NCBI RefSeq assembly: GCF_012184415.1
Contig: NZ_VTOX01000001.1
Coordinates: forward strand, 62,001 to 126,000
DNA length: 64,000 bases
Direction: 5' to 3'
Source of the DNA: Ramlibacter lithotrophicus
GTDB lineage: Bacteria > Pseudomonadota > Gammaproteobacteria > Burkholderiales > Burkholderiaceae_C
Positions within the stretch are counted from its first letter, which is position 1. Every line of letters starts with the position of its first letter. The position numbers were made by a program, and so were the translations under genes. A model generated the notes under the pieces. It did not search any database. It was not told where the DNA came from and was given only the letters and a program-made list of their open reading frames with translations. This document shows, piece by piece, positions 36,323 to 41,303 of this stretch.

Positions 36323-37444
36323 ATGAATCTCCCAGCCATCGAAGGCAGCCGGCGGAACGCGCTGCCCAGTGAAGACAGGCCCCAGGCGACCCGGCTGGAC
36401 GACGTCCGCATCCGGCAGGTCCGCCCGCTCATTTCGCCCGCCTTGCTGCAGGACGACTATCCGGCGGACGCCGCGGTGCAGGGCTTCGTCGAGGCCAGCC
36501 GCGACCAGGTGGCCGCCATCGTCCACGGCCGCGACCCGCGCCTGCTGGTCGTCGTCGGTCCCTGCTCCATCCATGACGGGGAACAGGCGCTGGAATACGC
36601 GCGCCGCCTGCGCGCCCTGGCGCCGCAGCTGCAGGACGACCTGTTGCTCGTCATGCGCGTGTATTTCGAGAAGCCGCGCACCACCGTCGGCTGGAAGGGT
36701 TTCATCAACGACCCGCACCTGGACGGCAGCTTCCGCATGAACGAGGGCCTGCGCCTCGCGCGTTCGCTGCTGCTGTCGATCACGCGCCTCGGCCTCCCGG
36801 TGGGCACCGAGTTCCTCGACCTGCTGAGCCCGCAGTACGTCGCGGACCTGGTCAGCTGGGGCGCCATCGGCGCGCGCACCACCGAAAGCCCCAGCCACCG
36901 GCAACTGGCCTCGGGCCTGAGCTGCCCGATCGGCTTCAAGAACGGCACCGGCGGCGGCGTGCAGATGGCCGTGGACGCGCTCGTCGCGTGTCGCTCGCCG
37001 CACGCCTTCATGGGCATGACCAAGATGGGGCAGGCCGCGATCTTCGAGACCGACGGCAACGCCGATTGCCACGTCATCCTGCGCGGTGGCTCGCGCGGAC
37101 CGAACTACCACGCTGCCGACATCGAGGCGGCGTCCGCCATGTTGCACAAGGCAGGCGTCTGCGAACGCGTGATGGTCGACTGCTCGCACGCCAACGCCGC
37201 GAAGAACTACCTGCGGCAGGTCGAAGTCGCCGGCGACCTCGCCCAGCAGATCGCCGCCGGCGAGCAGCGCATCCTCGGCCTGATGATCGAGAGCCACCTG
37301 AATCCCGGCAAGCAGGAGCTGCGCCCCGGCGTGCCGCTGCAATACGGCGTCTCCATCACCGATGGCTGCATCGGCTGGGAGCAGACCGAGACCGTGCTGC
37401 GCCAGCTGGCGCAGGCGGCGCGGCAGCGGCGCGAGCGCCGCTAG
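36323..37444 (+). CDS. 3-deoxy-7-phosphoheptulonate synthase, class I
   Basis: Condenses phosphoenolpyruvate and erythrose 4-phosphate, first step of the shikimate pathway. The 373-residue protein is of the AroF/G/H type. It has VVVGPCSIHD near residue 80 with the metal Cys, the RVYFEKPRTTVGWKGFINDP block, KNGTGGG, ILRGGSRGPNY with the metal His region downstream (VDCSHANAAKNY), and the C-terminal SITDGCIGWEQTE. Which aromatic amino acid inhibits it cannot be read from the sequence. The final G of its TAG stop is the first base of the inverted-repeat element. Confidence 0.95.
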   Translation: MNLPAIEGSRRNALPSEDRPQATRLDDVRIRQVRPLISPALLQDDYPADAAVQGFVEASRDQVAAIVHGRDPRLLVVVGPCSIHDGEQALEYARRLRALAPQLQDDLLLVMRVYFEKPRTTVGWKGFINDPHLDGSFRMNEGLRLARSLLLSITRLGLPVGTEFLDLLSPQYVADLVSWGAIGARTTESPSHRQLASGLSCPIGFKNGTGGGVQMAVDALVACRSPHAFMGMTKMGQAAIFETDGNADCHVILRGGSRGPNYHAADIEAASAMLHKAGVCERVMVDCSHANAAKNYLRQVEVAGDLAQQIAAGEQRILGLMIESHLNPGKQELRPGVPLQYGVSITDGCIGWEQTETVLRQLAQAARQRRERR

Positions 37445-37718
37445 GGAAGCTCTGAACAAATCCCGCCGCGCGCGACGGCGCTTTTCCGGGATGAGATCCT
37501 AGGCGCCGGACCCAAGGCAAGCCTGGACGGCTTGCCTGGTCCGGCAACAACGGAGCTCGCCCGGAAAAGCGTCGTCCCGTAGGGCTCGGACGAAAACGGG
37601 CGCTTTGCCCACCAAGTTCCTGGCCGGTGCGTCCAGCACCGGCTGCGAAACGTTGGCGGGCAAATCATCCCGTTTTCGTCTCGAGCGCGCACGACGCGAT
37701 TTATTCAGAGCTTCCCTA
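37442..37718. mobile_element. MITE-like structured element with TA flanks
   Basis: Terminal inverted repeats GGGAAGCTCTGAACAAATC (37444-37462) and its near-exact reverse complement (37698-37716; 18 of 19 positions) are bordered by TA on both sides (37442-37443, 37717-37718). Inside are two hairpin arms. Arm 1 pairs 37479-37490 with 37560-37571 (12/12) and encloses a second hairpin, 37505-37523 with 37529-37545. Arm 2 pairs 37589-37600 with 37669-37680 (12/12), then 37604-37615 with 37653-37664 (11/12), then 37623-37630 with 37636-37643 (8/8). No credible ORF is present, so it would be non-autonomous. Both neighbouring genes end in TAG formed by the flanking TA plus the element's first G. Confidence 0.8.
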
Positions 37719-40700
37719 ATGCGCCGCCACCGTCACCCGGATGCCGCGGATCTGCCCGGCCTGCCGTGACGCCGCCGGTCGCGGGTAGGTCGCGGCATCG
37801 AAGCGGTGCAGCAGTTCCGCTTCCTGGGCCTGGGCGAGCGCCACGTTGGCCGACTTCACGTGGCCGAAGCCGCGCATCTGCAGCGGCAGCGCGGCAATCT
37901 CGCAGGCGGTCTTCAGGCGCTCGCGCGTGAGCAACGGCAGCAGCGCTTCGATGCGGTCGCGATAGCGTCCGGCCAGTTCGCGCTCCATGCGGCGCTCCTC
38001 GGTGCGGCCGAAGACGTCGAACACCGTGCCGCGCAGCCGCCTGGCCCGCGCCAGCAGTTTCATCGCGGGCAGCATCCAGCCGCCCAGGCGGATCTTGCGC
38101 GGCGGCTGGCCACCGCGAACGCGCGAGAGGGCGGGCGGCGCCATGTAGAACTCCAGTTCGAATTCGCCTTCGAACTGCTCGCGCAGGGAACGGGTGAATT
38201 CGCCGTCGGTGTACAGGCGCGCCACCTCGTATTCGTCCTTGAAGGCCATCAGCTTGAGCAGGGCCTGCGCGACGGTGCGGGTCAATGGCAAGGATGGATC
38301 GGCGCCCAGCGAATCCTCGCGGCGGCGCACCTCGCCGACGAACCCGGCATAGCGTTTTGCGTAGCCCGCGTCCTGGTAGCCGGTGAGGTGGGCCACGCCG
38401 CGCGCGATCACCGCGTCGAGCGTGCCGTCCTCGCGCGCCGGTTCGGTGGGCGTGCCGCGCAGCAGCGCCACGACCGCCTGCGGCTCGCCCACGGTCAGCC
38501 GGCCGAGCGCCAGCGCCAGCTTGTTGTTCTCCACCGCGACGCCGTTCAGTTCGACGGCGCGCAGCAGCGCCTCCTGGCTCACCGGCACCAGGCCACGCTG
38601 CCAGGCAGCGCCCAGTGCCACGATGTTTGAGTAGATGGAGTCTCCCAGGAACGCCTCGGCCAGGGCCTGGGCATCCAGCGTTTCCACACGGTCGGCGCCG
38701 GCGGCAAAGCGCAGCTTCTCAAGCAGCTCCGGCGACTTCAGGCTGGCGTCCGGGTTGCGCAGGAGTTCGGCCACCGGCACTTCGTGCGTGTTGGCCAGGA
38801 TGCGGGTGCGGCCGTGGCGCACCGTGGCGAGCGCGTCGGCCGACGCCCCCACCACCAGGTCGCACGCCAGCAGCGCGTCGGCCTGCTGGGTGTCGATGCG
38901 GACCTGGTTCAGGCGCGACGGCAGGTCGGCGAGGCGCACGAAACTCAGGACCGAGCCGCCTTTCTGGGCGAAGCCCATGAAGTCCAGCACGCTGGCGCTC
39001 TTGCCTTCCAGGTGCGCCGCCATGGCCAGGAGCGCGCCCACGGTCACCACGCCGGTCCCCCCGACGCCGGTCACCAGCAGGTCGTACGGACCCGTCCACG
39101 CATGCGGCGCCGGCAGCGGCAGGGCATTCACCTGCGACATGAAGACCTTGCTGCCGCTGGCGAGCGCGCCGGCGCGTTGTCGCGGCTTGCCGCCAACCAC
39201 GCCGACGAAGCTGGGGCAGAAGCCCTTGGCGCACGAATAGTCCTTGTTGCAACTGCTCTGGTCGATCCGGCGCTTGCGGCCCAGCGGGGTCTCCAGCGGC
39301 TGCACCGCCACGCAGTTGCTCTGAACCGAGCAGTCGCCGCAGCCTTCGCAGACCCGGTCGTTGATGAACAGGCGCCGTGCCGGGTCGGCCAGCTCGCCTT
39401 TCTTGCGCCGCCGCCTCTTTTCCGCGGCGCAGGTCTGCTCGTAGATCAGCACCGTGACGCCGGGGATCTCGCGCAGGCGCCGCTGCACGGCATCGAGCCG
39501 GCCGCGGTCATGGAACTCGGTGCCGGCCGGGAAGCGGTCGCGCATGCGCTCGTACTTGGCGATGTCGTCGGACAGCACCACGACCTGCTTCACGCCCTCG
39601 GCCTCGACCTGACGTGCGATGCCGTCGACGCTGATGATGCCGTCCACCGGCTGGCCGCCGGTCATCGCGACCGCGTCGTTGAAGAGAATCTTGTAGGTCA
39701 GCGTCGCCTTGGCTGCCACGGCCTGGCGGATCGCGAGATAGCCCGAGTGGTAGTAGGTGCCGTCGCCGAGGTTCTGGAAGACATGCGGTACCTTGGTGAA
39801 CATGGCGTGCGAGACCCAGTCCACGCCTTCGCCGCCCATCTGGATCAGGCCTTCGGTGTCGCGATCCATCCAGCTCGCCATGAAGTGGCATCCGATCCCG
39901 GCCTGCGCATGCGAGCCCTCCGGCACGCGGGTCGAGGTGTTGTGCGGACAGCCGGCGCAGAAGTAGGGCAGGCGCTTGACGCTGTCCGAGGCGTTGGACA
40001 GCAGTTCCGGCAGCGTGAAGTCGCGCACCAGGTGCCGCCGGTCCAGGTCGGGGAAATGGCCGGCCAGCCAGTTGGCCAGGATCTCGATCAGGCGGGAAGG
40101 CCGCAGTTCGCCCAGCGCGGAAATCAACGGGCGCCCGGCGCTGTCCTGCTTGCCGACGATCACCGGCCGCTGGGCGGCGTTGTAGAACATCGAGCGCAAT
40201 TGCTCCTCGACGACCGGGCTTTTTTCCTCGACGACCAGGATCTCGGTCAACCCGCGTGCGAATTCGCGCATGCGCGTCGGCTCGATCGGATACGTGAGAC
40301 CCAGCTTGTAGATGCGCACGCCGTGCTGCGCCAGCGTCTCGGGCGAGATGTCCAGCCGCCGCAGCACCTCCATCAGGTCGTAGTGCGCCTTGCCGGCGGT
40401 GACGATGCCGACGCTCGCGTGCGGACTCGCCACGATGTGCCGGTCGATGCTGTTGACGCGGGCGAAAGCGCGTACCGCGTCCAGCTTGGCGTGCAGGCGC
40501 TGCTCGATGGTGAGCGACGGCAGGTCGGGCCAGCGATAGTGCAGCCCGCCGGCCGGCGGCTGGTACCCGGTCACGCTGCGCACCGTTTCGCCGTCCTGCC
40601 AGGCGGCGACGCGGGCGTTGACCAGGTCCAGGTCGACGGTGGAACCGCTTTCGACGATTTCCGACAGCGCCGTGAAGCCGACCCAGTTGCCGGAAAAGCG

Positions 40701-41303
40701 CGAGAGCGCCCACCCGTACAGTCCGAACTCCAGGTACTCGGCGACGCTCGCCGGCGCGACGACGGGCGCGTGCCAGGACTGGAAGGCCTGGTCGCTCTGG
40801 TGCGGCATCGACGACGACACGCAGCCGTGGTCGTCGCCCGCCACCATCAGCACGCCGCCGTGCGGCGAAGCCCCGTAGGCGTTGCCGTGCTTCAGCGCGT
40901 CGCCGGCGCGGTCGACGCCGGGGCCCTTGCCGTACCACATGGCGAACACGCCGGCGCAGGTGCGCTCGGGGTCGGCCTCGACACGCTGGGTGCCGAGCAC
41001 GGCGGTCGCGCCCAGTTCCTCGTTGATCGCCGGCAGGAACCGCACGCCGCTGGCATCGAGCTGCGCGCCGGCCTTCCACAGCGCCTGGTCCACCATCCCG
41101 AGCGGCGAGCCGCGGTAGCCGCTGACGAAGCCGCGCGTGTCCAGTCCCGCGGCGGCGTCGCGCTGGCGCTGCATCAGCATCAGGCGCACCAGCGCCTGCG
41201 TTCCGGTCAGAAAGATGGCGCCGCCGCTGGCGGCCAGGTTGTCGGTGAGGCGGTAGTCCCGCCGCACGAGCGACGGCGAATCGGTCATGGTTGTCTCGGC
41301 CAT
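37716..41303 (-). CDS. indolepyruvate/arylpyruvate:ferredoxin oxidoreductase (fused alpha-beta)
   Basis: Oxidatively decarboxylates arylpyruvates to arylacetyl-CoA with ferredoxin as acceptor. The 1195-residue polypeptide fuses the alpha part (pyrimidine-binding and TPP modules: FLTGTQALVRLMLMQ, GYRGSPLGMVDQAL, SGYLAIRQAVAAKATLTYKI) with a Cys-rich iron-sulphur region (VCEGCGDCSVQSNC, later CNKDYSCAKGFC) and a gamma-like domain (VTGVGGTGVVTVGALLAMAA). The ATG at 41303 has GGAG six bases upstream. It is divergent from an Lrp-type gene and near paaABCDE, so phenylpyruvate to phenylacetyl-CoA is a likely reaction. Confidence 0.9.
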   Translation of the reverse strand: MAETTMTDSPSLVRRDYRLTDNLAASGGAIFLTGTQALVRLMLMQRQRDAAAGLDTRGFVSGYRGSPLGMVDQALWKAGAQLDASGVRFLPAINEELGATAVLGTQRVEADPERTCAGVFAMWYGKGPGVDRAGDALKHGNAYGASPHGGVLMVAGDDHGCVSSSMPHQSDQAFQSWHAPVVAPASVAEYLEFGLYGWALSRFSGNWVGFTALSEIVESGSTVDLDLVNARVAAWQDGETVRSVTGYQPPAGGLHYRWPDLPSLTIEQRLHAKLDAVRAFARVNSIDRHIVASPHASVGIVTAGKAHYDLMEVLRRLDISPETLAQHGVRIYKLGLTYPIEPTRMREFARGLTEILVVEEKSPVVEEQLRSMFYNAAQRPVIVGKQDSAGRPLISALGELRPSRLIEILANWLAGHFPDLDRRHLVRDFTLPELLSNASDSVKRLPYFCAGCPHNTSTRVPEGSHAQAGIGCHFMASWMDRDTEGLIQMGGEGVDWVSHAMFTKVPHVFQNLGDGTYYHSGYLAIRQAVAAKATLTYKILFNDAVAMTGGQPVDGIISVDGIARQVEAEGVKQVVVLSDDIAKYERMRDRFPAGTEFHDRGRLDAVQRRLREIPGVTVLIYEQTCAAEKRRRRKKGELADPARRLFINDRVCEGCGDCSVQSNCVAVQPLETPLGRKRRIDQSSCNKDYSCAKGFCPSFVGVVGGKPRQRAGALASGSKVFMSQVNALPLPAPHAWTGPYDLLVTGVGGTGVVTVGALLAMAAHLEGKSASVLDFMGFAQKGGSVLSFVRLADLPSRLNQVRIDTQQADALLACDLVVGASADALATVRHGRTRILANTHEVPVAELLRNPDASLKSPELLEKLRFAAGADRVETLDAQALAEAFLGDSIYSNIVALGAAWQRGLVPVSQEALLRAVELNGVAVENNKLALALGRLTVGEPQAVVALLRGTPTEPAREDGTLDAVIARGVAHLTGYQDAGYAKRYAGFVGEVRRREDSLGADPSLPLTRTVAQALLKLMAFKDEYEVARLYTDGEFTRSLREQFEGEFELEFYMAPPALSRVRGGQPPRKIRLGGWMLPAMKLLARARRLRGTVFDVFGRTEERRMERELAGRYRDRIEALLPLLTRERLKTACEIAALPLQMRGFGHVKSANVALAQAQEAELLHRFDAATYPRPAASRQAGQIRGIRVTVAAH

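Follow-up and report, generated by a model that had tools for sequence, protein, structure and literature searches.

The window analysed in this study is a stretch of 64,000 nucleotides of the Ramlibacter lithotrophicus genome, in which two convergent genes identified from open reading frames and protein annotation meet at a 277-bp element that carries no gene (positions 37442-37718). The left neighbour encodes 3-deoxy-7-phosphoheptulonate (DAHP) synthase on the plus strand (36323-37444), and the right neighbour, on the minus strand, belongs to the indolepyruvate ferredoxin oxidoreductase family (37716-41303). Direct reading, a search for pairing arms and a predicted fold describe the element as terminal repeats enclosing two hairpin arms, with edges that read CGC-TAG-GGAAGCTCTGAACAAATC ... 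GATTTATTCAGAGCTTCC-CTA-ATG. On the left, the plus-strand target copy CTAG (37441-37444) contains the stop codon of the DAHP synthase gene (TAG, 37442-37444), and on the right the CTA of the plus-strand target copy CTAA (37716-37719) is the TAG stop of the minus-strand gene. An earlier sequence-only reading had stated that both neighbours end in TAG at the edges of the element, and the open reading frames bear this out.

The 19-bp terminal inverted repeats claimed in that reading were also recovered by direct reading, and match at 18 of 19 positions (37444-37462 and 37698-37716). The left repeat GGAAGCTCTGAACAAATC (37445-37462, plus strand) resembles the ends of IS5-group insertion sequences (IS), and its partner on the minus strand, found by repeat search and direct reading, is GGAAGCTCTGAATAAATC (37698-37715). 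An 18-mer of the repeat has two matches in the window compared with 0.01 expected. When the TA is counted in, the terminal stem comprises 33 nt at 88% pairing, with its left strand at 37442-37474 and its right strand at 37686-37718. Inside it the predicted fold has a four-way layout of terminal stem, arm 1, a mini-hairpin and arm 2. Arm 1 (37471-37579, plus strand) is closed by pairing of 37471-37490 with 37560-37579 (90%), arm 2 (37589-37680, minus strand) by pairing of 37589-37600 with 37669-37680 (100%), and between them lies the small hairpin CCC-GTA-GGG (37576-37584). The predicted folding energy is -188.6 kcal/mol, whereas shuffled sequences average -109.6 (sd 5.35), which gives z = -14.8. 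The two long internal hairpin arms of the earlier description stand.

Arm 1 holds, in the sense direction, a module that is conserved elsewhere; it matches covariance model R2 (described below) at 37478-37575 with 86 bits, a score from a model whose training set included the window sequence. By alignment and direct reading, the conserved internal loop of the module has the 5' strand TAGGC (37500-37504, plus strand) and the 3' strand AACAAC (37546-37551, plus strand), the latter being mostly AACGAC or AACGCN in the rest of the family. Arm 2 takes the place of what is elsewhere an inverted second module; it gave no R2 match and is too diverged for the model to score. The 5' loop strand of most modules, GCTAGGCGC (CCTAGGCGC in the window), contains CTAG (37499-37502 in the window), which is the insertion target and is strongly depleted in the window; its presence there may be chance, a nesting site or a relic. 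A known structured RNA was rejected as an identity for the element or the module, as neither had an Rfam 15 match at the gathering score: the only result for the window region was MIR918 (25.8 bits against a gathering score of 268), and the matches in 20 loci were to tRNA and the ZMP-ZTP riboswitch, neither of them at the module. A search with the whole 277 bp against phage and plasmid collections found no homologue.

Copies, target site and stop codons

The genome from which the window was taken (G000, 5.26 Mb in 24 contigs) contains seven full-length copies of the element by DNA search, the window's own included, and the other six are 88-92% identical. In addition, G000 has derivatives that measure 341, 171 and 93 bp, a pair of 58-bp hairpins and two one-sided remnants. 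The 58-bp hairpins (C12:62393-62450 and C4:297641-297698) consist of little beyond the two terminal repeats, and the 93-bp derivative (C1:130332-130424) is similarly stripped. Longer versions with the same ends (type A), of 310-400 bp, have extra hairpins set into the arms (L031, L038 and L039 in G005, and L008 at G000 C1:19558-19898). Among 60 genomes of the genus, 9 contain DNA that matches the element. G053, G073 and G005 have complete type-A elements and G010 has a relative with altered ends, and the other matches were inner-arm or short. Second copies, which the earlier reading had named as a check, are therefore present both in the same genome and in relatives, in line with its proposal of a non-autonomous multi-copy element.

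A second family in G000, of about 276 bp and with ends CTAGTGTCCTGTCCCACAAATATC, was designated type B. When the type-B copies were compared with L103 over 272 positions, 6 of the 8 others were identical at 262-271 positions without gaps; the outliers were L119 (250 identical) and L120 (140, shifted by an insertion). Around the window copy the flanks differ in their last base (CTAG and CTAA). Perfect CTAG/CTAG flanks surround 5 of 9 type-A elements in relatives (L047-L050 and L052; the others are L031, L038, L039 and L051), CTAG being present on both sides of 3 of 3 copies in G073 and 2 of 3 in G053. The same perfect pair is found at 7 of 9 type-B elements of G000 and, among the eight longest type-A copies there, at L008 alone. 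The duplicated target is therefore better read as the 4-bp YTAR/CTAG than as bare TA. The TA at both edges noted by the sequence-only reading is present, and the flank comparison replaces its TA-only target with this longer one.

The window element is short, without a gene and multi-copy, with terminal inverted repeats; target duplication is seen in its copies, the window copy itself having CTAG/CTAA. It is almost certainly a non-autonomous transposon (a MITE) that has been mobile. An autonomous parent within G000 was rejected. All 26 of 26 terminal-repeat matches were short elements or remnants, a search with an IS5-family protein query found no IS5-group transposase at E <= 1e-20, no IS630 transposase was found in the assembled genome, and the sole DDE_Tnp_1 match is degenerate with two stops inside.

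Placement at stop codons extends beyond the window. Nineteen copies in G000 were examined (10 type A, including two shortened ones, and 9 type B); both 58-bp hairpins, L121, the one-sided remnants and one or more type-B copies (among them C7:230792) were left aside. Gene calling based on codon usage places the stop codon of at least one neighbour exactly at an edge in 15 of the 19, or at 18 of 38 edges. CTAG occurs 12 times in the window compared with 179 expected from base composition, and of the ten occurrences outside the element 4 were judged on inspection to end a long open frame (GC3 >= 0.89). When the 15 of 19 copies were compared with these 4 of 10 sites, the difference had p = 0.05. 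Target scarcity together with loss of harmful insertions may be behind much of the stop placement. In G031, from a different family of the same order, one-arm elements seldom abut a stop, so the coupling to stop codons is not universal.

The earlier proposal that the element was inserted at overlapping stops that had shared a single TA was upheld in part. The element does sit on both stops. No exact empty site was found among 29 other DAHP-synthase loci of the genus, most of them with 1.5 kb of flank. In one of these (L245, in G056) the two genes still converge but no element lies between them; the stops, TAG and TGA, are 47 nt apart, and the locus is too diverged to show a single TA or CTAG at the junction. 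A second (L251) has a partial oxidoreductase match 1.3 kb from the DAHP synthase gene, and the remaining 27 have none. In L245 the oxidoreductase gene ends in CAT-TGA compared with CAT-TAG in the window, which indicates that the insertion sits on the native stop of that gene.

A conserved module within different ends

Searches with the element also returned loci that were alike only in the inner arm and had different ends. In these the unpaired internal loop UAGGC/AACNAC is the fixed part of the module, in a conservation count partly biased by the choice of some arms by their loop pattern. Covariance model R1 was built from 13 sequences of the inner arm and refined to R2 with 87 aligned modules. 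At E <= 0.1, R1 detected the module in 39 of the 60 genus genomes, frequently in families of copies with similar scores, and R2, with at most 16 candidates scored per genome, found it in 50 of 249 genomes of the phylum and 30 of 132 genera. The pattern of the two loop strands alone gave at least 118 stretches in a collection of named genomes. Those listed are mostly from Burkholderiales (Acidovorax, Paracidovorax, Comamonas, Cupriavidus, Achromobacter, Collimonas, Rubrivivax and others), with further ones in Pseudomonas, Azotobacter, Sphingomonadales, Rhizobiaceae and some Elusimicrobia; some matches outside Proteobacteria may be chance. Among the first 80 pattern loci listed, R1 at E <= 0.01 gave 79 matches in 65 (counted by hand), a result that tests only the stems because the pattern had already fixed the loop.

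Module-bearing elements are about 270 bp long with two inward-facing modules or about 165 bp long with one. The folded two-arm examples have both modules pointing inward with a mini-hairpin between them, and in many cases a second module was recovered some 105 nt away on the other strand. Among 68 elements with a clear terminal stem, 42 measured 260-285 bp, 11 measured 150-190 bp and 15 fell outside these sizes, several of the 15 through boundary error. A YTAR no more than 5 nt away was present at both ends of 21 of the 68 elements and at a single end of 25, and 22 had none at either end; a control of random pairs had it at both ends in 2 of 1360.

The ends resemble those of several insertion sequence families. 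Type A ends match those of a Xanthomonas plasmid IS5-family IS at 15/18 and 14/18 positions and those of an IS5-family IS in Ramlibacter genome G042 at 15/18, and the matched IS carry a transposase with DUF772 and DDE_Tnp_1 domains, which agrees with the IS5-group affinity that was among the earlier candidates. In plasmids of X. citri an IS5-family gene is accompanied by an 18-bp end identical to that of type A, though no second end was found. For type B, agreement is 23/26 at each end of an IS630-family element from Cupriavidus. The ends of type C, a one-arm type in G024, match a 1.18-kb Polaromonas element at 20/23 and 16/23, and its open reading frame carries the IS630-type DDE_3 domain. 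For type D (L118 in G011) the left end was compared, and is identical at 20/20 positions to the left end of the IS1182-like ISKpn6, just before the transposase gene. L121 represents a third end type in G000, and searches tied no transposase to the ends of a fifth type, GGGCCTGTTCACAC. Automated counts of end types were unreliable (an ungapped count of 68 was inflated by boundary slips, and single linkage merged 76 of 85), so only types tied to an IS or seen repeatedly are named. In the complete genome G031, one-arm elements with several kinds of end sequence coexist (L304-L314). A 151-bp element (L045:4004-4154) on a plasmid of Xanthomonas perforans has ends GGAAGCTCTGAACAACTC, is flanked by TTAG and adjoins a full IS5-family element with related ends.

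Among previously described repeats, ERIC (RU-1) is likewise gene-less, TA-ended, mostly intergenic and folded as one long hairpin, although it is 127 bp long and has one arm. When folded, the E. coli ERIC consensus as printed in PMC2759123 shows an internal loop, AAGGC/AACGCA, whose shape is the same; the strict loop motif is present in it and turned up in 1 of 20000 shuffles. The 3' loop strand is missing in two E. coli copies and in one printed Salmonella copy, and R2 gave no match to the E. coli ERIC copies in L344 and L345 at E <= 10 with filters off. In G082, placed among the gammaproteobacteria by its kinship label and its ERIC-like repeats, 22 module matches were found, with two-module elements whose ends are ERIC-like at 17-18 of 24 positions; both such ends are present 262-278 bp apart in 12 of the 17 loci fetched. 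Because the E. coli and Salmonella copies are without the full loop and R2 misses the E. coli copies, ERIC is treated here as the nearest known relative and not as an established member. YPAL/RU-2 and RU-3 are also small folded enterobacterial repeats (PMC2759123) and were rejected as relatives, as the sequences printed there contain neither the strict nor the loose loop motif. MITEPsy1 of Pseudomonas syringae, described in PMC3189936 as 100 bp long and assigned to the IS5-type ISPsy2, has similar ends (GGAAGGTCTGAAAAAGCC) and a 4-nt CTAG or YTAA duplication, a likeness in ends and target alone. RUP of Streptococcus pneumoniae, a 107-bp repeat whose insertion into TA sites PMC2229807 tentatively attributes to an IS630 transposase, resembles types B and C in its IS630 link, a likeness by description alone.

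Pairing, strand asymmetry and interpretation

In the alignment of 87 modules, 826 cells of the stems are double-changed compared with 251 in shuffles, 91.5% of cells are paired compared with 59.2% in shuffles and 34-40% in slid controls, and both sides have changed in 32 of 33 stem pairs, figures that are favoured by an alignment (A2) fitted to the structure. Stem mismatches were then scored by a rule that treats G.U and A.C alike, after arms more than 80-85% alike had been removed, with three lacking a motif match in one set. Seventy arms picked by their loop letters without a structure model (12 of 82 were left out as below the stem threshold) had 89 G.U, 16 A.C and 144 other mismatches. The arms found by the model had 82 G.U and 19 A.C, or 14:3 for the better arm of a pair, 14:5 for the lesser (p = 0.06) and 54:11 for single arms. 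Terminal stems had 40:27 (p = 0.14) and differ from module arms with p = 0.0003 to 0.003, although they are only a partial control since two-arm elements are near-symmetric. The excess of G.U over A.C in module stems suggests that one strand is constrained as a single strand, which probably acts as RNA; the asymmetry could be partly mutational. The orientation-dependent effect of ERIC RNA on the stability of the upstream transcript described in PMC2229807 agrees with the strand asymmetry of the modules. A preference of one-arm elements for a gene reading into the sense side was not seen (9/18 compared with 6/18; rows for G292 and G007 were unused because their sizes and gene calls were unsuited, and 4 loci had no module by motif). 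For this reason the RNA role, as deduced from pairing conservation and the G.U excess, is put at about an even chance.

Three other explanations were weighed. One is that the element arose as an ordinary MITE by internal deletion of a single IS5-group element, and that its interior is an incidental palindrome tidied by template switching, with no selected function. Palindrome correction can yield double changes without selection. The IS5-like ends and target and the precedent of MITEPsy1 as described in PMC3189936 fit this account. However, elements with other ends and in other families have the same unpaired loop letters, although template switching would not keep these, and the G.U excess of the module stems stands against the 40:27 of the terminal stems, so an incidental palindrome appears quite unlikely. 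A resident two-way terminator or 3'-end element of the gene pair, one that does not move, would suit the convergent position and the many copies at gene 3' ends. It is contradicted by the similar copies at unrelated places in G000, with type B often having CTAG on both sides, and by the gene pair without the element in G056. No T-tailed hairpin was found on the plus strand of the element, and the minus strand has two overlapping ones at 37463-37480 compared with 0.6 expected. An intrinsic two-way terminator, as the sequence-only reading had suggested, is thus a weak candidate, and the resident element is highly improbable.

The remaining alternative is that the module works as DNA, either as a cruciform or as a folded single strand, to which a transposase or a host protein binds. 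Its location inside mobile elements, often as an inverted pair, suits a cruciform, and neither a sense-side gene preference nor a promoter-like site at the window copy was seen. However, a G.T on one strand of a double-stranded cruciform is an A.C on the other, and the 89:16 asymmetry is unexpected for such a structure. A DNA device is therefore considered unlikely overall, with a strand-specific single-stranded DNA form of the module being possible.

The explanation preferred here, and judged likely as a whole, combines a MITE moved by an IS5-group transposase with a widespread module architecture, changes of ends and a module that works as RNA. Given the repeats, the copies, the target type and the stop-codon placement described above, an IS5-group transposase supplied in trans, its identity deduced from the ends, would have moved the element into a CTAG/YTAR site at the stops of the two convergent genes. 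The target copy and the first base of the repeat would then have given TAG on each side, so that both stops were kept and the insertion was tolerated. The interior would be one instance of an architecture in which a terminal stem surrounds hairpin modules, one or two in number and directed inward, and the non-autonomous lineage bearing these modules would have changed its ends, and hence its carriers, repeatedly. Once transcription ran into the element, the module would act as a folded RNA and alter the end, processing or stability of the transcript, which could make insertion behind genes tolerable.

As module-bearing elements carry IS5-, IS630-, IS1182- or ERIC-like ends, the lineage appears to switch carriers, and the module is very probably common by descent to elements of different end types. 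In a similar way, SINEs swap tails to suit different LINEs. A broader proposal is an unrecognised superfamily that occurs across many proteobacterial families, and also in other phyla, and is built on the RNA module UAGGC/AACNAC and swapping IS5, IS630, IS1182 and ERIC ends, with ERIC as its one-armed enterobacterial branch; the case for and against it is evenly balanced. A literature search limited to open-licence papers found none uniting such elements, which is weak evidence of novelty, and a table of uncharacterised stem-loop repeat families is given in PMC2267715.

The placement at stop codons illustrates a way for a parasite that targets CTAG to settle in a GC-rich genome without doing much damage. 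The prediction from the strand asymmetry is that the module functions as a sense-strand RNA, and the covariance model can serve to find and annotate such elements. The usual view of bacterial MITEs is that each is a decayed copy of a single insertion sequence. If the folded interior is kept across genera as the ends change, these would instead be long-lived lineages with a selected payload, and, if this is true, ERIC and similar repeats may have a common origin.
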